This document shows positions 24,744 through 34,303 of a stretch of 34,712 nucleotides of DNA, one piece after another. Origin of the DNA: Lentimicrobiaceae bacterium (GTDB lineage Bacteria > Bacteroidota > Bacteroidia > Bacteroidales > F082); NCBI GenBank assembly GCA_015061335.1, contig SUWT01000021.1:1-34712 (forward strand), given 5' to 3'. A program made the translations under genes and the position numbers. Under the pieces are notes generated by a model. It saw only the letters and a program-made list of their open reading frames with translations. It was not told where the DNA came from and made no database searches. Every line of letters starts with the position of its first letter. The stretch's first letter is position 1.

Positions 24744-25528
24744 TAACAAGCAAGGCTAATCCAAAGATAAAGAATGTTGTAAAGCTTCAGAAAGCTTCGG
24801 AGCGCAGAGATCAGAACAGGATTATTATAGAAGGCAGGAGAGAGATAGAAAGGGCTATTCTTTGTGGTTTCATAATAGATACATTATTTATATGTAACGA
24901 GATTAAGGATTACAGTTCAGAGCTCATGGATCGAAGCTCATGGATCAAAGCTAACATCATTGAGGAGGTAAGTCTTGAAGTTTTTGAGAAGATTGCTTAT
25001 CGTGAAGGCAGCGACGGGCTTTTAGCTGTTGCCATTCCAAAATACGCAGATATAAAGGATTTTAAGCCTAAGAAGGATCCATTAATTATAGTTTTAGAGA
25101 CTGTTGAAAAGCCAGGTAATTTAGGAGCTATTATGCGTACTGCAGATGCTGCAGGCGTTGATGCGGTGATTATAGCTGATCAACGAACCGACCTATACAA
25201 TCCCAATGCGATAAGAGCAAGTATAGGAACCATATTCAGCGTTCCATTATTTTCATGTTCATCGGAAGAATGTATAGAATGGCTTAAGGAGAATGATATT
25301 AAGATATTTTGCACGTATCTTAAGGCATCGATTGATTATTTAGAAGCAGATTTCACAAAAGGATCTGCTATAGTTATGGGAACGGAAGCAACTGGTATTT
25401 CTGACATTTGGGTTAAAGCTGCGGATCAGAATCTCATTATACCTATGAATGGCATTGCCGATTCACTTAATGTTTCGGTTACTACAGCGATTGTCGTTTT
25501 TGAAGCGATAAGACAAAGAAGAATTTGA
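24740..25528 (+). CDS. TrmH/SpoU family RNA 2'-O-methyltransferase
   Basis: 262 residues, SPOUT fold. An N-terminal substrate-binding domain (MITSKANPKIKNVVKL, RIIIEGRREIERAI) is followed by the methylase domain with the three SpoU motifs: EKPGNLGAIMRTADAAG, IVMGTEATGIS and IPMNGIADSLNVSVTTAI. It uses S-adenosylmethionine to methylate ribose 2'-OH in rRNA or tRNA. The layout is closest to the RlmB/TsnR type, but the target base is not determinable. It overlaps the EamA gene by four bases. Confidence 0.92.
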   Translation: MITSKANPKIKNVVKLQKASERRDQNRIIIEGRREIERAILCGFIIDTLFICNEIKDYSSELMDRSSWIKANIIEEVSLEVFEKIAYREGSDGLLAVAIPKYADIKDFKPKKDPLIIVLETVEKPGNLGAIMRTADAAGVDAVIIADQRTDLYNPNAIRASIGTIFSVPLFSCSSEECIEWLKENDIKIFCTYLKASIDYLEADFTKGSAIVMGTEATGISDIWVKAADQNLIIPMNGIADSLNVSVTTAIVVFEAIRQRRI

Positions 25529-27404: not shown

Positions 27405-28136
27405 TTATAATATAATTCCCATCAGCACCACCTTTCCGTCATCTTTTTTGATTGAAAAATACGTTCCGTCTTCGCGTTTTTTTCTGTAAATCGATAAGGT
27501 TTCACCTTCGAAGCTCTCATTAATATATGAGACCTCTATCTCTTTTAATGACATATTTTCCAATTCTTTGACAGAGAATGTGTCGAGGAGCATAGTGATA
27601 TAAGTGACGTTATTTGTATGATGAGTGACGTCAATGTCTCCAGATCGTATTAATCTTTTATATACAACATCATTTTCCGTAAAATCATCTTTAAATCTTC
27701 TAAATTTCTCTTCAATGGATTTCTCTGTAATCCAGTCTATATCATTAGGATAGGATGTTGTCTCCACTTTTCTCAGAGTACGAGTAGTTGCATCAATGAT
27801 GACCCATTCGGTAATTCCATTGATTAATATTTCATTATCCTTAATTATTTGATAGCAGCGATTGCAGCGAACTCCATCAGCACCCATCGGCCATGTTCTT
27901 ATCGAGACATCATCGTTCCAAAGTGGCAGTTTATTAATCTTGACTTTTGTCTTGGTAATAACCCACATCGCATTATCTTTCTCAAGGAGTGAGAAATCGT
28001 CGATGCCCAAAAACATGGCATGACGGCTTGCCACATCTTGAAACGACATTAATATAGCCTCTGTTCTAAGACGCATCAGGCTATCGCATTGTCCGGAAAG
28101 GACTGTGGTATTAAGAGTAAATTCGTTCTTTTTCAT
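27405..28136 (-). CDS. Acyl-ACP thioesterase (FatA-like)
   Basis: 243 residues, double hot-dog fold. It hydrolyses acyl-ACP to free fatty acid. The N-terminal hot-dog shows LMRLRTEAILMSFQDVASRHA and WVITKTKVKINKLP with WNDDVSIRTWP; the second starts near 150 and carries GDIDVTHHTNNVTYI. In plant and Bacteroides enzymes this motif reads D-x-D-x-N-x-H-x-N-N; here the catalytic Asn position is Thr (T171) while H173, N175 and N176 remain. The acidic residues in SYINESFEGETL (residues 203-214) correspond to the other active-site strand. Its promoter at 28199-28206 faces away from the lipid kinase gene. Its neighbours handle fatty acids and lipids. Confidence 0.9.
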   Translation of the reverse strand: MKKNEFTLNTTVLSGQCDSLMRLRTEAILMSFQDVASRHAMFLGIDDFSLLEKDNAMWVITKTKVKINKLPLWNDDVSIRTWPMGADGVRCNRCYQIIKDNEILINGITEWVIIDATTRTLRKVETTSYPNDIDWITEKSIEEKFRRFKDDFTENDVVYKRLIRSGDIDVTHHTNNVTYITMLLDTFSVKELENMSLKEIEVSYINESFEGETLSIYRKKREDGTYFSIKKDDGKVVLMGIIL

Positions 28137-28150
28137 GATTCCTTTTTAAT

Positions 28151-28185
28151 GTCAACAGTCAACAGACAACGGTCAACGGTTGAGG
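28151..28185. repeat. Heptanucleotide repeat, GTCAACA family
   Basis: Five heptamers in strict register: GTCAACA, GTCAACA, GACAACG, GTCAACG, GTTGAGG. It sits in the predicted 5' untranslated region of the thioesterase mRNA. The same family recurs at 31734-31768 and, inverted, at 29291-29304. Confidence 0.85.
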
Positions 28186-28198
28186 GTTAATATCTTTA

Positions 28199-28206
28199 CA
28201 AAAATA
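28199..28206 (-). promoter_or_regulatory. -7 box of the acyl-ACP thioesterase gene
   Basis: TATTTTTG on the minus strand matches TAnnTTTG. It lies 62 bases before ATG 28136, so the leader would include the heptamer repeat. Confidence 0.5.
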
Positions 28207-28261
28207 ACAATAATATAGTTTAATAAAATATACTTTCAATAAAAAGCGATAATATTTCAAT

Positions 28262-28295
28262 TTTGTTCATCATTACTAAATTATTGTTACTTTTG
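28262..28295 (+). promoter_or_regulatory. Promoter of the lipid kinase gene
   Basis: TTTG (28262-28265) and TACTTTTG (28288-28295) are 22 bases apart, 17 bases before ATG 28313. The rest of the 176-base divergent gap 28137-28312 is AT-rich sequence without other features. Confidence 0.6.
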
Positions 28296-28312
28296 CAAAA
28301 AACATTTTTGTA

Positions 28313-29221
28313 ATGAAGCATATCTTTATTGTCAATACCGTTGCAGGAAGTGAGTCTTGTCTTAACATTGTCAGGGAAGGTATCGCAAAATGCAAAAAAG
28401 CTATTGACTATGAAATATACACTCCAGATTCACCCTCTGACTCCATCAATTATATAAAGAGATATTTAGAGAACCATTGTGAGGAAGAGGTACGTTTTTA
28501 TGCATGCGGCGGTGATGGAACAATAAACAAAGTAGCTACAGGAATAGTAGGATTTCCTAATGCAAGCATGGCTGCACTTCCTTTCGGGACAGGCAATGAC
28601 TATGTGAAATATTACGGTTCCGCAGAGAAGTTTAAAGATGTATGTAGCGTAATTCATGGCGAAGAAAAGCTTGTTGACATCATGAAAGTCAATGAGAGAT
28701 ATGCTTTAAACTCGACACATTTCGGATTGGATAGCGTAGTTGCCAAGGCGATGAACAAACTCAGACGCAATATCATTTTCGGAAAGAAAAGAGCCTATCC
28801 TTTTGCGGTTGTTTGGGGTTTCATTGCAGGGATGCGTAACAGATGTATCGTTTATGCCGATGGCGAACAGCTCAACACTACCGACATTTTATTATGTACA
28901 GTCAGTAACGGGAAATATGTTGGCGGTTCATATTTTAATGCTCCAAACTCGCTCAACGATGACGGACTGCTTGAAGTCTGCTTAGTCAAACCTGTAGCAA
29001 GATTAAAGTTTTTGGGCTTGATAAAGTATTATGTCGCGGGCACACATATCGGCAATCCTAAGTTCAAAGACATCGTCGTTTATCGTCAAGCGAAGAGAGT
29101 GACGATTGAAGGTCCCGAAGGATTCTGCGTTTCCATTGACGGCGAGATTTATAAAAACAGCCACATCGAGATTGAGAATTTAGAAAAGAAGATAAGATTC
29201 GTAGTACCGAGGGAAAATTGA
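28313..29221 (+). CDS. Diacylglycerol kinase family lipid kinase
   Basis: 302 residues. The DAGK catalytic signature is complete: FIVNTVAGS at the N-terminus, GGDGTIN (66-72) for ATP, and LPFGTGND (89-96). The C-terminal beta-sandwich has the expected DDGLLEVCLVKP and SIDGEIY. Family members phosphorylate diacylglycerol, sphingoid bases or ceramide; the lipid cannot be chosen from sequence, though sphingolipids are common in Bacteroidetes. It is soluble or peripherally membrane-bound. Its last codons run into a GAAAATTGAAAATTG repeat. It diverges from the acyl-ACP thioesterase gene and lies near the FakA-DegV fusion. Confidence 0.9.
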   Translation: MKHIFIVNTVAGSESCLNIVREGIAKCKKAIDYEIYTPDSPSDSINYIKRYLENHCEEEVRFYACGGDGTINKVATGIVGFPNASMAALPFGTGNDYVKYYGSAEKFKDVCSVIHGEEKLVDIMKVNERYALNSTHFGLDSVVAKAMNKLRRNIIFGKKRAYPFAVVWGFIAGMRNRCIVYADGEQLNTTDILLCTVSNGKYVGGSYFNAPNSLNDDGLLEVCLVKPVARLKFLGLIKYYVAGTHIGNPKFKDIVVYRQAKRVTIEGPEGFCVSIDGEIYKNSHIEIENLEKKIRFVVPREN

Positions 29222-29224
29222 AAA

Positions 29225-29304
29225 TTGGCTGTCAGCTGTCAGCCATCAGCCATCAGCCATCAGCTCTTAGCAAGAAAATCGTGGATAAGGTCTGTTGTCT
29301 GTTG
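29225..29304. repeat. Heptanucleotide repeats, TCAGCCA family and inverted GTCAACA family
   Basis: 29225-29266 holds TTGGCTG, TCAGCTG, three TCAGCCA and TCAGCTC in 7-base register; 29291-29304 holds TCTGTTG twice, the reverse complement of CAACAGA. Both lie in the 140-base gap 29222-29361 between the converging lipid kinase and PepSY genes. No clear terminator is present there. Confidence 0.85.
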
Positions 29305-29361
29305 ACAGCCGAAGGCTCTCTCCCGTAGTTGATGCGTCTTAATCGAATTGAAAATTGAGAA

Positions 29362-30198
29362 TTATTTCTTCTTTCCGAATTTTCTCTTGAAGAAAAGATA
29401 ATATCCCGTTAATGGCAAAGTCGCTCCTATCATAGCTGCCAAGAACCATAAGATGCGTGTCGTCATTCCGCCCCAGCTGCCGACATGGATGGCTCGAATA
29501 GTCTTTCTCGAAATGAGTTCTCCGAAAATTTCATTAAAGCCGTCGCGATACCATTCGAACGACCATGTCAAGCCCGTCAACGCCATCGCGAGGATAAGCA
29601 AGGCTGCATATATTCCTCCCGCCACATGAAGATCGTAACAGAATCGTCGCCAGCCTTTTCTTACATTGATGCTAAGTCGGGTCTTGAGATTCTTGATATT
29701 ATTAGGAATCCAGATTATTATTCCCGTGATTATTATTATCACCATGAGCAGCGTACTCACACCTACTATCATCTTTCCCCAGAAGATGCCTCCATCTTGC
29801 GGACGTGAGTCCATCAGCCAACGATGAAGTCGGAACATAGTCCTGAAGAAAGGAAGTCGCTCCGGCTGTCCTTTAATCTCACCCGAATACTGATCGACAA
29901 AAACAGCGGCATGTTTCGGCTTGGAGAGATTCACCTTATAACAACGTTCGGCTTCTTCCGACACCACTACATTTTTTATCTCCACATCATCAGCGAGCGT
30001 AGGTTCAACCATCGCCATCACTTGTTCGATGGATAAGGCATCATCAGACACCTTATCCACGAAATAATATTCTTTCTGAACCTTTTCTGTTATCTCTTTC
30101 TCGAAGACAAGCATCGCTCCTGAGAAACATATCACCGACATCACCAGTCCTAACGGCATCGACAACCAGATATGCAGTTCCTTGAAAATCTTTCTCAT
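29362..30198 (-). CDS. xusC: PepSY-associated membrane protein, XusC-like
   Basis: 278 residues from ATG 30198; a longer frame would begin at TTG 30207. Four membrane helices: about 12-32, 145-168, 195-215 and 240-262. A PepSY-like periplasmic region lies between the first two (IEQVMAMVEP, VDQYSGEIKG). Conserved His occur in KELHIWLSMPLG, RLHRWLM, YDLHVAGGIYAAL and AIHVGSWGG, as expected of PepSY_TM proteins, several of which are inner-membrane siderophore-iron reductases. It is the last of three minus-strand genes, 12 bases after the DUF4374 lipoprotein gene, matching the xusABC order known from Bacteroides thetaiotaomicron. The symbol is by synteny and family, not by tested function. Confidence 0.85.
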   Translation of the reverse strand: MRKIFKELHIWLSMPLGLVMSVICFSGAMLVFEKEITEKVQKEYYFVDKVSDDALSIEQVMAMVEPTLADDVEIKNVVVSEEAERCYKVNLSKPKHAAVFVDQYSGEIKGQPERLPFFRTMFRLHRWLMDSRPQDGGIFWGKMIVGVSTLLMVIIIITGIIIWIPNNIKNLKTRLSINVRKGWRRFCYDLHVAGGIYAALLILAMALTGLTWSFEWYRDGFNEIFGELISRKTIRAIHVGSWGGMTTRILWFLAAMIGATLPLTGYYLFFKRKFGKKK

Positions 30199-30210
30199 AA
30201 AAATCAATTA

Positions 30211-31638
30211 TTAATTTAAAGGCAACAAACGACCTACTCCGCTGATTTGTGTTGCTTCTACGGTGAGACCTTTCTCCGCCACGCCCGTATTTATATCAAT
30301 GGCATAAACCGCAGGATAAGAATTTGTTGTAGTCACCGCCATATAAACCTTTCCGTCTTCCGAATAAGGAGCGTTGCCGAAGCCGGAGAGCACATCTGCT
30401 GATGGAAGTCCCGTCACATTTGTCAAAACACCTTCTTCTGCATCGAAGATAGCGAGTTTGTCGGCGACCATATCGTTGGCAGGTGTTATTGGTCTGTCGT
30501 ACATCAGCATCAGAAACTTATCATCGCCTACGTGCCAAGTACGCAAGAATGAAAGTCCTCCCGACAAGGATTCGAAATCGACATAATAACTCTCGTCGAA
30601 CGACTCTGTTCCATTCTTGATACGCATCACGCCTGCCGGAAGTGTAGTCTGCTGACGCACGTCTTTCATCGACTTGGCGTATGATGGCGAGAACACATAT
30701 ATGTCGCCATTGTCGGCAGCCCATGTCATCTGATAATACTGTGATTTTCTACGACCGCAGGCATAACTTATCTTGTCGGTCTTAATGAGTTTCTTTCCGA
30801 AAAGATTCTCGTCATCGAAGATAGCGATCCAACATTCGTTAGGATATTGTGTCCATTGAAGCTCATCAACATCATATGCTCCGCTACCCGATCCTCCCGG
30901 TTCTGTAGTAACAAGATCTTCATTGCCAGGTAAAATCCATTGACCATCACCGTCCTTAACACCATACTGACTCAATCCCATAGGAACGGCCGCTGTAAAC
31001 AATTTGCCGTCACGCTCCTGAATGCCGGCGAGTGTCACATATTCTCCATTGCCAAGGAAGTTCTCGGAGAGATAGTTCTCTTCCAAAGTGTTGTTAGTAG
31101 TATAAGTCTCTGCATAGACATCTAACTTAGAAACTAAGAAAGACTGCGGAATATAACCGTTTTCGTCAGCCCATTCTGTAGGACCGTCGCCGGTGGAGAA
31201 TGTCATCACATAATCATCATAGATGCCGTATGTGGTAAAACGACGCACTGCATATTCTCCGGAGCGAGCCTTGAGATTATAATCTGAATCCATGATAAAA
31301 GAGCGTGTCAATCCCGCATTGCCTTGATTATAAGACAAAGCGTAAAGATATTTGTCCTTATAAAATACCCATTGTGTTGCACCGTCATTGACCAAACCGT
31401 TCTCCATTCCGATAGTACCACTATCGAGAGAGGTAGCAGTCAACAGGGCGTTAGTCGTGGTGTTAGAAAATTGTCCTTGCGATGCAACGACATACGTTCC
31501 TTTTTCATTATCATCAGGATTGGTAGGGTCGTCGTCATCAGGATTACAGGATGAGAATAATGAAATCATTGCAATAGCAGCAAAAGCTGTAGCGTAAATA
31601 CGCATAGAAGTCTTAAAATTTTTGATAGTTTTTTTCAT
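30211..31638 (-). CDS. xusB: DUF4374 surface lipoprotein, XusB-like siderophore-binding protein
   Basis: 475 residues. The signal peptide ([16 protein letters not shown]) ends in a lipobox with Cys31, followed by [12 protein letters not shown]; such an acidic stretch resembles the Bacteroidetes surface-export signal. The rest is beta-rich and propeller-like ([33 protein letters not shown]), consistent with the DUF4374 family. B. thetaiotaomicron XusB is a DUF4374 lipoprotein that binds enterobactin-type siderophores, and it also lies between a TonB receptor and a PepSY protein. The gap to the upstream receptor gene is 232 bases and is filled mainly by heptamer repeats, unusual for an operon. 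Ligand is inference. Confidence 0.88.
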
Positions 31639-31660
31639 TGTTTATTATATTTATTATATT

Positions 31661-31848
31661 AGTTTAAAGTTTAAAGTTTAAGGTTTAAAGTAGTTCAAAG
31701 TCTATAGTTAAAAGTTTTAAAGTTTATTATTGGGTCAACGGACAACAGTCAACAGACAACAGTCTTTGTCCACATTCCTAATTCCTAATTCCTAATTCCT
31801 AACTTCTAATTCCTAATTCCCTTAAACCTTAAGCATTAAACCTTAAAC
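31661..31848. repeat. Chain of four heptanucleotide repeat families between xusA- and xusB-like genes
   Basis: In order: AGTTTAA x3 then GGTTTAA (31661-31688) with decayed copies to about 31725; GTCAACG, GACAACA, GTCAACA, GACAACA, GTCTTTG (31734-31768); ATTCCTA x4, ACTTCTA, ATTCCTA (31774-31815); CTTAAAC, CTTAAGC, ATTAAAC, CTTAAAC (31821-31848). Every block has a 7-base period although the units are unrelated. The gap 31639-31870 holds no gene. Confidence 0.9.
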
Positions 31849-31870
31849 CAAAACATTTAATTTTCAATTG

Positions 31871-34303
31871 TTAATTCATCTCTCCTCCCAAAGCGATTCG
31901 TACTTTCGCATAGAAAGCACGTCCCGCTTTTTGAAGACTGAAGTTGTCGTACAAATCTTCATCAGTGATGTTACGACATTCCAAAGAGAGATTATATCTT
32001 CCATTTTTCAAAGAATAATTCAGAGCTACATTATGCGAGAATTGATTAGGCACCATAAACTCGTCCTTGTTAGTTCCGATGCGCGACGAATAATAATAGA
32101 ACTTATGCAGATAATAATTATCATAAATCACTGACAAGTCATTGCCTTTTTTCATGAAGTCGTTCCATGTGAAAGTTATGTCGGCATCGGTGAAAAAATA
32201 CGGGATGTTAGGCATTCTGTCCTTATAGCCGAGATTCGGCATCGACTCAGTTCCGAGAGCAATCGGCATATTATCACGTATGTCCATATAAGTGACGTTA
32301 CCTCCTACAGAGAGCCATTTCGAGAAAGAATAACGTAATGAAGCATTACCGCCTATCGTCTTGACTCTACCATAATTGATATATGTAGCAGCCGACTTGC
32401 CGCCGCTAATGTCGACGATATTACGTTGGATATAATCGCGAGTGTCGTGATAAACGAGTCCGCCTTCTACATAAATGTTATGATTATTACTCTTATCCAA
32501 ATAGAAATTATAACTGATGTTGAAATTGAAATTGTGACTATTCTCCGGACGTATGCCGATGTCGCCCATCTCTAAATCTTCGTCACCGAACATCTCTTCA
32601 ATAGTCGGGAGACGATAAGCTTTTTCGTAAGAAATCTTCGTCTGCAACTCAGGAACGATGAAATACGTGCCAGCCATTCCATAGCCGAAAGCATCTTCCT
32701 TGCGAGTCGTCCTCACGAAATCGGAGGCGTTTTCATCCACGGCGATTGGACCTGATACAAAGAGATTATAATGTTTTGCAAAGACAGAGACATTCCATTT
32801 GTGACTTGGCATAAACCTGTATTGAAAGCCTGCTATGTTTTTACGAGTCTCCTTGTTTATAGGGTCGGTTTGTTCTTCGGCGGCGAGCAATGAAGTGTTG
32901 GAGCGGGTGAACGCATTGAACACATTGTTAAATGTAAAGAGATGAGCGTGACCGATGCGATAATTTAAAGTCGCGGTGGTATTCCAATTGTCGTTGTCGG
33001 AACGCGAATACTGATACGACTGTTCACCCGGAGAATTAAGTCGTTTCGTCTCACCCAACCAATTATATTTATATTGAGAAGTATCTACGTTATAGTTTTC
33101 GTTTTTGTTATAATTCGCTGTCAACGTAAGATCAAGGTTTGGTATTATCAAATCTCTTTTGACATATTCCATCGAAGGCATGATAGAGTTGCCGTGACGA
33201 TGTTTAGCGCCATAGACGATTTCTTGACGCACTCCGGTCTGTATCTCCTTATACATCTGCGAATATGTCATGCCGAATATCAATCTGTCGGTCCATTTCT
33301 TTCTGACGATTCCCAACTTCGCGATGACAGCTTCATTATGATAAGTATCGTTGAAACGCTCTACATGTTCTTTCTTTGTCTTATCGATGAGACCCGTCTC
33401 GAAATTCTCCACCGGAGCATCGACCATATAGTTGTTATCGGAATAATTTTGGAAAGCGTTGATTTCCCATTTAATACCATTCTCGAAAGTCTGACCTGCG
33501 TTTATCGTAGAGCGATGAGTGTTGAACGAGCCGTAAGAATATGAAGCGTCGGCGAACCATGAACGACGTCTTTTGTCGGTGACGATATTTATCACGCCGC
33601 CGATGGCATCGGAGCCGAAGCCTACCGGAACCACGCCTCTATATATTTCTATGCGTTCCGCGAAATTTACAGGAATGTTGTTGAGCGAGAAAGAGCTGCC
33701 CACGCCTTCCTGAGGCACGCCATCTATGAACACCTTGACATGTTTTCCGGAGAATCCGTTGAGCATGACAGAGAGGTCGGAGCCAACGCCACCCGACTCA
33801 CGCATCTTCAATCCCGGCGACTTGGAAAGAGCATCGCTGATATTCTTGGAAGAATTCTGCAAGCTGCGAGTATCGACAGCCACAGCATTGAAAGCGGAAT
33901 TCTTAACACGTTCAATACTTGAAGAAGTGACGACAACTTGCTCAAGCATGATGTTATCTTCTTTCAAGACAAAATGAATATTGACAGGAGAACCAGATTT
34001 TATTACTACATTCTTCTCTTGATTCTCATATCCGAGCATGCTTACGCATAGTACATGTTCACCGTGATGCAGTTTAATATGAAAATCGCCATTCTCATTG
34101 GTGACAGTTCCGAGAGAAGAATTCTTTATCGCCACGGTGGCGAAGGCAACAGGAACTCCTTTTTGGTCAACTACCTTGCCCGAAACCGAGATAGCTCCAG
34201 TGATTTCTTCATCGGTAGGATTAGCGTAGGAACAAATAGTTATAGCTAACAACAGATTTAGTAACAATAATCTTTTAGTCTTTTTGAGAAGTATATTCAG
34301 CAT
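31871..34303 (-). CDS. xusA: TonB-dependent outer-membrane receptor, XusA-like
   Basis: 810 residues. Signal peptide (LLLLNLLLAITICSYA), then a carboxypeptidase-regulatory-like domain (about 40-115: SGKVVDQKGVPVAFATVAIK, MLGYENQEK), a probable TonB box LEQVVVTSSS, a plug (about 130-240: VMLNGFSGKHVKVFIDG, RIEIYRGVVPVGFGSDAIGG, INIVTDKRR) and a 22-strand-type barrel ending in the aromatic-rich FYAKVRIALGG. It lacks an adjacent SusD, arguing against glycan uptake. Gene order with a DUF4374 lipoprotein and a PepSY protein supports ferric xenosiderophore import as in B. thetaiotaomicron XusABC. The -7 box is at 34326-34333. No clear Fur site was recognised. Confidence 0.88.
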   Translation of the reverse strand: MLNILLKKTKRLLLLNLLLAITICSYANPTDEEITGAISVSGKVVDQKGVPVAFATVAIKNSSLGTVTNENGDFHIKLHHGEHVLCVSMLGYENQEKNVVIKSGSPVNIHFVLKEDNIMLEQVVVTSSSIERVKNSAFNAVAVDTRSLQNSSKNISDALSKSPGLKMRESGGVGSDLSVMLNGFSGKHVKVFIDGVPQEGVGSSFSLNNIPVNFAERIEIYRGVVPVGFGSDAIGGVINIVTDKRRRSWFADASYSYGSFNTHRSTINAGQTFENGIKWEINAFQNYSDNNYMVDAPVENFETGLIDKTKKEHVERFNDTYHNEAVIAKLGIVRKKWTDRLIFGMTYSQMYKEIQTGVRQEIVYGAKHRHGNSIMPSMEYVKRDLIIPNLDLTLTANYNKNENYNVDTSQYKYNWLGETKRLNSPGEQSYQYSRSDNDNWNTTATLNYRIGHAHLFTFNNVFNAFTRSNTSLLAAEEQTDPINKETRKNIAGFQYRFMPSHKWNVSVFAKHYNLFVSGPIAVDENASDFVRTTRKEDAFGYGMAGTYFIVPELQTKISYEKAYRLPTIEEMFGDEDLEMGDIGIRPENSHNFNFNISYNFYLDKSNNHNIYVEGGLVYHDTRDYIQRNIVDISGGKSAATYINYGRVKTIGGNASLRYSFSKWLSVGGNVTYMDIRDNMPIALGTESMPNLGYKDRMPNIPYFFTDADITFTWNDFMKKGNDLSVIYDNYYLHKFYYYSSRIGTNKDEFMVPNQFSHNVALNYSLKNGRYNLSLECRNITDEDLYDNFSLQKAGRAFYAKVRIALGGEMN

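Follow-up and report, generated by a model that had tools for sequence, protein, structure and literature searches.

A stretch of 3.7 kb near one end of contig SUWT01000021.1 (assembly GCA_015061335.1, Lentimicrobiaceae bacterium), whose full length of 34,712 nucleotides is called the window here, carries tandem repeats of seven-nucleotide units between its genes. Tandem Repeats Finder (TRF), run over the whole window with a minimum score of 30, reports seven period-7 arrays in three gaps between positions 28151 and 31849, plus a short GAAAATT array. Both the exact period and the location in three gaps had been given in a preliminary description of this DNA, and TRF, autocorrelation and Markov simulations confirm them. 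Genes were called as ATG open reading frames (ORFs) of at least 100 amino acids; features are listed by position.

27405-28136, minus strand: acyl-ACP thioesterase gene (Pfam PF01643)
28137-28312, 29222-29361 and 31639-31870: the three gaps holding arrays (ORF calls and Pfam)
28151-28177, plus strand: GTCAACA array (TRF), about 14 nt upstream of the thioesterase start codon; no composite shown at this site
28313-29221, plus strand: diacylglycerol kinase gene (ORF and Pfam)
29213-29306, minus strand: composite block type 1, (GTCAACA)n - GACCTTATCCACG - 15 nt - (GCTGATG)n - GCTGACAGCC - (AATTTTC)n
29213-29227, plus strand: GAAAATT module of block 1 (TRF, sequence), overlapping the stop codon of the gene at 28313-29221; absent from the preliminary list
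29228-29264 (TRF: 29239-29264), plus strand: GCTGTCA/GCCATCA (TCAGCCA) module of block 1 (TRF, autocorrelation)
29280-29306, minus strand: inverted GTCAACA module of block 1 plus tail (CGTGGATAAGG on the plus strand; TRF: GTCTGTT at 29290-29304)
29362-30207, minus strand: PepSY protein gene (ORF and Pfam)
30211-31638, minus strand: DUF4374 protein gene (ORF and Pfam)
31661-31870, plus strand: composite block type 2, (AGTTTAA)n - AGTAGTTC...AAAGTTTATT - (GTCAACA)n - GTCTTTGTCCACA - (TTCCTAA)n - (CTTAAAC)n - AATTTTCAATT
31661-31726, plus strand: AGTTTAA module with degenerate continuation (TRF)
31734-31773, plus strand: GTCAACA module with non-repetitive tail (TRF array 31734-31764; CAACAGWCTTTRTCCAC at 31757-31773)
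31774-31820, plus strand: ATTCCTA module (TRF, autocorrelation)
31820-31849, plus strand: CCTTAAA module (TRF)
31871-34303, minus strand: TonB receptor gene (ORF and Pfam)

Could this regularity have arisen by chance? On a stricter autocorrelation score, period 7 is passed by 29228-29264, 31661-31688 and 31774-31820, the array at 31734-31764 passes at period 14 only, and those at 28151-28177, 29290-29304 and 31820-31849 fail. Among periods 4 to 24, runs in the window pass at multiples of 7 only, and one run of period 14 falls within a gene, at 24921. One hundred order-3 Markov simulations of the window gave a single period-7 run in total, and the number of period-7 arrays expected in simulated gap sequence is zero. 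Window simulations, autocorrelation scan and simulated-gap expectation thus all reject pure chance as the origin.

The arrays are not limited to this locus. In the genome as a whole (handle G000; 2,579,427 bases in 143 contigs, 92% complete, the window being contig 108), the GTCAACA dimer GTCAACAGNCAACRG is matched 96 times (47 on one strand, 49 on the other), some of the matches overlapping within one array, against none for its reversed control. We sampled 847,013 bases (49 sequences after joining, window included), a non-random choice by contig number of C1-C28 and C97-C117; no more than 20 kb was taken of each, except for C6, C14 and C18, which are whole. This sample holds 54 period-7 arrays, compared with at most 11 at any period not a multiple of 7 before harmonics were removed and, afterwards, eight each at the runners-up, periods 8 and 12. 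The dominance of period 7 in this third of the genome supports the earlier preference for a shared copying process over chance. The bias is to non-coding DNA: 41 of the 54 arrays are intergenic, though 89% of the sample is called coding. Their density is very uneven, with 6 arrays per 10 kb on C99 (L153) and 9 per 10 kb on C117 (L170, a contig of 5.3 kb), and 0.2 to 1 per 10 kb on the three longest sampled contigs. By far the longest is a 489-bp AGAATGA array in a convergent gap of C100 (L154):14953-15441. Long hexamer arrays of the GCCATT/GCCATA type also occur, at C6:296-383, L034:3615-3678 and L037:2303-2366, at a contig end or on short contigs.

Most arrays of the window are parts of composites whose modules recur elsewhere in largely unchanged order. 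In block 1, read on the minus strand, the GTCAACA array is followed by the tail ACCTTATCCACG, a spacer, the GCTGATG array, GCTGACAGCC and the AATTTTC array; the block overlaps the stop codon of the diacylglycerol kinase gene, and its order is repeated at C14:73876-73960 (82% over 87 bp) and C99:10991-11083 (78% over 94 bp) in BLAST alignments against the sample. Block 2, which sits between the TonB receptor and DUF4374 genes, has an AGTAGTT linker ahead of its GTCAACA array and the tail TCTTTGTCCACA behind it. By the same search, parts of block 2 stand at seven further places (C6, C14, C27, two on C99 and two on C117), mostly in the same order, and six aligned stretches have ragged ends and varying content. 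The genome holds 22 copies of the junction CAACAGWCTTTRTCCAC, at which an array meets its non-repetitive tail, including one inside tilS; the junction TTTAAAGTAGTT occurs nine times in the sample, and the reversed control of each gave none. At 29280-29289, 31765-31773 and C117:2794-2810 the GTCAACA module has a tail (CTTTGTCCACA, sometimes TTTATCCACA) similar to a DnaA box. A link of this CTTTRTCCACA tail to DnaA was rejected: TTATCCACA, the DnaA box consensus, and TTGTCCACA, with 8 and 9 occurrences in the sample, are no commoner there than TTATTCACA (10) or TTTTCCACA (14).

The preliminary description had counted at least five unrelated units, which overstates their diversity. CTTAAAC is one substitution away from AGTTTAA on the other strand, and several units are adjacent modules of one composite block. 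Chained by single substitutions, the 24 unit families form 6 groups, GTCAACA and TCAGCCA falling together in one and AGTTTAA and CCTTAAA in another; random gap heptamers form 15.8 (standard deviation 2.9), and none of 300 draws was as low. With two substitutions allowed all 24 families join, a figure that has no control. A common 'RTT' core, which 20 of the 24 units have where 14.9 would be expected (p 0.02), was set aside because the motif had been chosen by eye.

Confinement to gaps, likewise claimed earlier, holds within the window and fails genome-wide, since 13 of the 54 arrays lie inside ORFs (one, at residues 3-10 of its ORF, may reflect a miscalled start). Nor do genes exclude a unit length that is not a multiple of three, as had been supposed: five of the six array-bearing ORFs scanned have Pfam domains, those of TilS (PF01171, PF11734), a biotin ligase, a methyltransferase, an HlyD protein and a bPH_5 protein. 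Of the peptides that the inserts encode, TDNRQQTTDNR and SRQPSANSQ are typical. TilS is essential in model bacteria, and the insert in its gene is in-frame, array and tail being carried together. Of 40 genus genomes, 38 gave a TilS, as did 7 of 9 further handles, and 30 loci were aligned; repeat families, here and in the thioesterase leaders below, were assigned by eye. In the parts of the 30-locus alignment that were viewed, where one row ends before loop 2, inserts at loops 1 and 2 are restricted to G000, G055 and G009, and both loops are short and free of such repeats in the remaining genus rows. Every related species in which a loop was recovered has repeat-like inserts there (eight for loop 1, six for loop 2, nine for loop 3), and their families differ between species. 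At loop 1, G000 has TCAGCCA; G009, G073 and G075 have the octamer AAGACTAC, with further heptamers in the latter two; G055 has a GAGTCAAC-type repeat with a hexamer, G058 a GAGACTAC-type repeat, and G059 and G067 a GTCAACA-type repeat with a tail variant. Loop 2 carries a GACAACA-type repeat in five species and the octamer in G009, and loop 3 at least three repeat families. In tilS at L169:6591-6663, arrays of the octamer AGATTCTC encode SDSQILKLSDSQILRFS, and relatives have other octamer families at this same loop. The TilS proteins of other genus members from species poor in GTCAACA, L221, L237 and L242 among them, bear what look by eye like in-frame repeat inserts at other loops (for instance PEPVEGP, FERSEAESRN and ERSEWRNL).

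Differing families at one site are also found in the leader of the thioesterase gene. The gap is readable, with both flanking genes adjacent, in eight of nine relatives, and all eight have some array there, L051 and L052 short ones only. The family is of the GTCAACA type in five of the eight (L051 among them), a AACAATTGACAGTT repeat in L052 and a GGAGTTATG-type octamer in L054 and L057. A tree built from the two flanking proteins, L078 being taken as outgroup, places each of L052, L054 and L057 as sister to a GTCAACA locus and so requires at least three changes of leader family. Counted by genome, the octamer dimer GGAGTDATGGAGTDATG is matched 8 times for L054, 9 for L057, 11 for L051 and 7 for L055, once each for L053 and L056, and not at all in G000 or for L052, L058 and L059. 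Array sites in sister species may be orthologous, and are not independent.

How widely is the family spread? Among 99 genus genomes, our own included, 12 have three or more GTCAACA matches (3 to 184), seven have one and 80 have none. The tail junction CAACAGWCTTTRTCCAC is present in 11 of these 12, G102 being the exception; this search also took in nine locus-derived handles, eight of which are by their coordinates the same genomes as G handles. In a separate set of 40 genomes only G000 and G009 are positive. The nearest named relatives are Bacteroidales records, mostly metagenome-assembled and, by their titles, from herbivore guts. Period-7 and period-8 arrays number 11 and 13 in stretches of G009 (157 kb), 33 and 1 in G059 (193 kb) and 9 and 6 in G067 (200 kb), densities that are biased upward because GTCAACA or tail matches were already known on the contigs in question. 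The counts are 19 and 0 in G023 (100 kb), 5 and 0 in G020 (92 kb), 3 and 0 in G011 (120 kb), 2 and 0 in G018 (100 kb) and 1 and 1 in G015 (88 kb); 20 kb of G014 held neither, nor did 50 kb of E. coli K-12. Period 7 is therefore not exclusive, period 8 exceeding it in the G009 stretches and coming close in G067. The result that had been named in advance as refuting the earlier reading, other periods as frequent as 7, is thus partly seen in sister species.

In the own sample, 16 of 40 arrays abut or overlap a stop codon (7.8 expected, p=0.0005), four are no more than 10 bp from a start codon (5.3 expected) and only two fall in divergent gaps, a depletion against the share of gap length (p 0.004). 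Stop-codon adjacency recurs in G059 (7 of 24, 3.7 expected, p=0.03). Orientation in codirectional gaps was counted for the own genome, G059 and G067 in turn. AARTTGA lies on the gene strand in ratios of 7:1, 5:0 and 4:0 (sum 16:1, two-sided p ~0.0003) and TGTTGWC in ratios of 16:3, 6:4 and 4:1 (sum 26:8, p ~0.003), whereas TTAAACY, with stops on both strands, is unbiased (7:5, 5:3 and 0:1; sum 12:9). This pattern fits selection on stop codons, since AARTTGA and TGTTGWC have their stops mainly on the gene strand; AATTAGG, with stops on both strands and a count of 5:0, does not fit. Inside called ORFs of the three genomes, 32 of 35 TGTTGWC dimers present their largely stop-free strand. As a stop-free array upstream of a gene can join its ORF, both this count and the orientation bias in gaps are inflated.

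What do these observations reveal about the origin of the repeats? They are lineage-specific dispersed repeats, built of tandem blocks of 7-nt and sometimes 8-nt units and short non-repetitive linkers in recurring order. Modules and linkers recur at many unlinked sites of one genome, the family at a given site differs between sister species, and copies are found between genes and at their ends, within a 5' leader and, in-frame, in the loops of proteins. We give a probability of about one half to the explanation that arrays are copied from one another, with slippage acting on the copies and selection pruning them. A site that already holds an array would be rewritten from other arrays of the genome by ectopic copying, through template switching or gene conversion seeded by a shared short repeat; new sites may be seeded likewise, from chance microhomology. 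Replication slippage would tune the number of units, and selection would eliminate copies that break genes, leaving those between genes, those abutting stop codons and stop-free inserts that keep the frame of a protein loop. More tentatively, and with the odds rather against it, repeat sites could be persistent slots, refilled from whatever short-repeat family abounds in the genome at the time, in a self-reinforcing process that needs no dedicated transposase, gene ends, leaders and TilS loops being rewritten with position and frame kept.

Several observations weigh against copying between arrays. Module order is not strictly fixed: at C99:6354 a GTCAACA module stands ahead of AGTTTAA, and C6 and C117:3685 run from AGTTTAA directly into CTTAAAC, lacking the GTCAACA and TTCCTAA modules. 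Four of the eight octamer matches of L054 overlap and are, by coordinates, the leader array itself, leaving four elsewhere, and L051 and L055, with 11 and 7 octamer matches, yet retain GTCAACA in the leader. In G067 none of four intergenic arrays adjoins a stop codon, and the depletion of divergent gaps is not repeated in G059 (4 of 24). No copying event was observed, each species being represented by one genome, and the copying step is inferred. The families at one site could partly reflect drift of a single ancestral array, because units within groups are one substitution apart. Finally, copying does not explain the preference for 7.

A rival idea is that each array is born in place by independent slippage, with 7 favoured by how much DNA the polymerase holds. 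In its favour, period 7 predominates in the own genome and in the G059 and G023 stretches, and the arrays are imperfect and of variable length. Slippage leaves the 22 copies of one non-repetitive tail and the recurring module order unaccounted for, however, as well as a family found at dozens of sites in one species group and hardly elsewhere in the genus, and period 8 is commoner than 7 in the G009 stretches. As linkers are shared at distant sites, slippage is improbable as the sole process; it stays as a process that alters copy number. The blocks could instead be selected elements of 3' or 5' untranslated regions, acting in the transcript for instance as the RNA-binding-protein sites proposed for TAACTGA repeats in Beggiatoaceae (PMC4679880). 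The gene-strand bias of AARTTGA and TGTTGWC, the adjacency to stop codons and the leader array in all eight relatives would suit such a role. On the other hand, families are exchanged at one site, so that sequence is not conserved, TTAAACY lacks the bias, as expected if the bias only mirrors stop codons and ORF calling, and no more than one GTCAACA match is found in 87 of the 99 genus genomes; we regard a transcript-level function as unlikely.

Recurring composites with linkers, together with copies within genes, resemble insertions, and could be non-autonomous elements that depend on a transposase or reverse transcriptase acting in trans. Y1 transposase genes (PF01797, RAYT-type) are present in 70 of the 99 genus genomes and in 5 of 14 controls; six related genomes have them (G009, G059, G063, G067, G073 and G075), and reverse transcriptase (RVT_1, PF00078) is found in 7 of 11 related genomes, some of the carriers being array-rich. 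Yet Y1 has no match in G000, G055, G058, G066 or G071, RVT_1 none in G000, G063, G073 or G075, and Ku (PF02735) none in any of 11 genomes. With zero matches in the own genome, these three are rejected as required machinery; other transposase families were not searched, and an enzyme gene could have been missed because completeness ranges from 79 to 100%. The ragged ends and varying content of the block-2 copies speak further against a dedicated mobile element, which we consider doubtful. That the own genome is a draft of 143 contigs, and that related records are titled metagenome-assembled genomes, would be the grounds for an assembly artefact. This is very improbable given that the inserts keep the frame of the conserved tilS in the genomes of nine species and that arrays occupy the same leader in eight relatives from separate records. 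Linkers shared by composites far apart, together with the exchange of families at fixed sites, indicate movement of arrays from site to site as well, and a second process beside slippage thereby becomes testable. If copying between arrays is correct, short intergenic repeats would supply new peptide segments to conserved proteins, lineage by lineage.

As a class, the arrays are heptameric simple sequence repeats, which are already known (PMC4692102, PMC4679880), and the earlier likening to known heptamer repeats is upheld. In these sources the frequent period of 7 in bacterial tandem repeats is described as unexplained, polymerase slippage being the standing idea, and the role of polymerase length is credited to Mrazek and co-workers (2007). 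Our own sample shares the over-representation of period 7 typical of long simple repeats (54 arrays against at most 8); the G009 stretches do not. The heptamers of Xanthomonas (GGGAATC) and Nostoc (GGGGA(C/T)T) are similar in placement (PMC4692102): tandem 7-nt units, mostly intergenic and near ORF ends, under-represented in divergent gaps (as in our own sample, not G059), with altered sequence in the same gaps of relatives. They form one G-rich family, whereas here one genome has many, mostly A+T-rich families, with composites and linkers, in-frame copies in conserved genes and period 8 as well. The TAACTGA repeats, reported from Beggiatoaceae, Cyanobacteria and five Bacteroidetes and accompanied in some gaps by different heptamers (PMC4679880), are likewise direct heptamer repeats with a Bacteroidetes occurrence, but they are one family lying mostly upstream of start codons; here families are many and stand more often at stop codons, only four arrays in 40 coming as close as 10 bp to a start. 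The short tandemly repeated repetitive sequences of cyanobacteria such as Calothrix PCC 7601 (in part after PMC4692102) also comprise several heptamer families per genome. Their hosts belong to a different phylum from the Bacteroidales host here, and the comparison is by description, not unit sequence. A 50 kb stretch of a Trichormus variabilis plasmid held no period-7 array and one period-28 array.

Other small repeats offer looser parallels. Rickettsia palindromic elements are longer palindromic units inserted in-frame in protein genes; the arrays behave similarly in genes, but are tandem heptamers or octamers. The small dispersed repeats of cyanobacteria, said by Elhai (2008) to be very small units without genes of their own, are alike by description. 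The Y1 (RAYT-type) transposase that goes with repetitive extragenic palindromes (REP/REPIN) has no match in G000. Compared with miniature inverted-repeat transposable elements, block 2 has ragged ends in the six aligned stretches, inverted termini not having been systematically searched. Composites, in-frame inserts in genes such as tilS and family swapping at fixed sites did not appear in the open-access literature among the matches listed. Outside the bacterial genomes, (GTCAACA)3 is present in four IMG/VR records (L248-L251), each with a period-7 array of its own.

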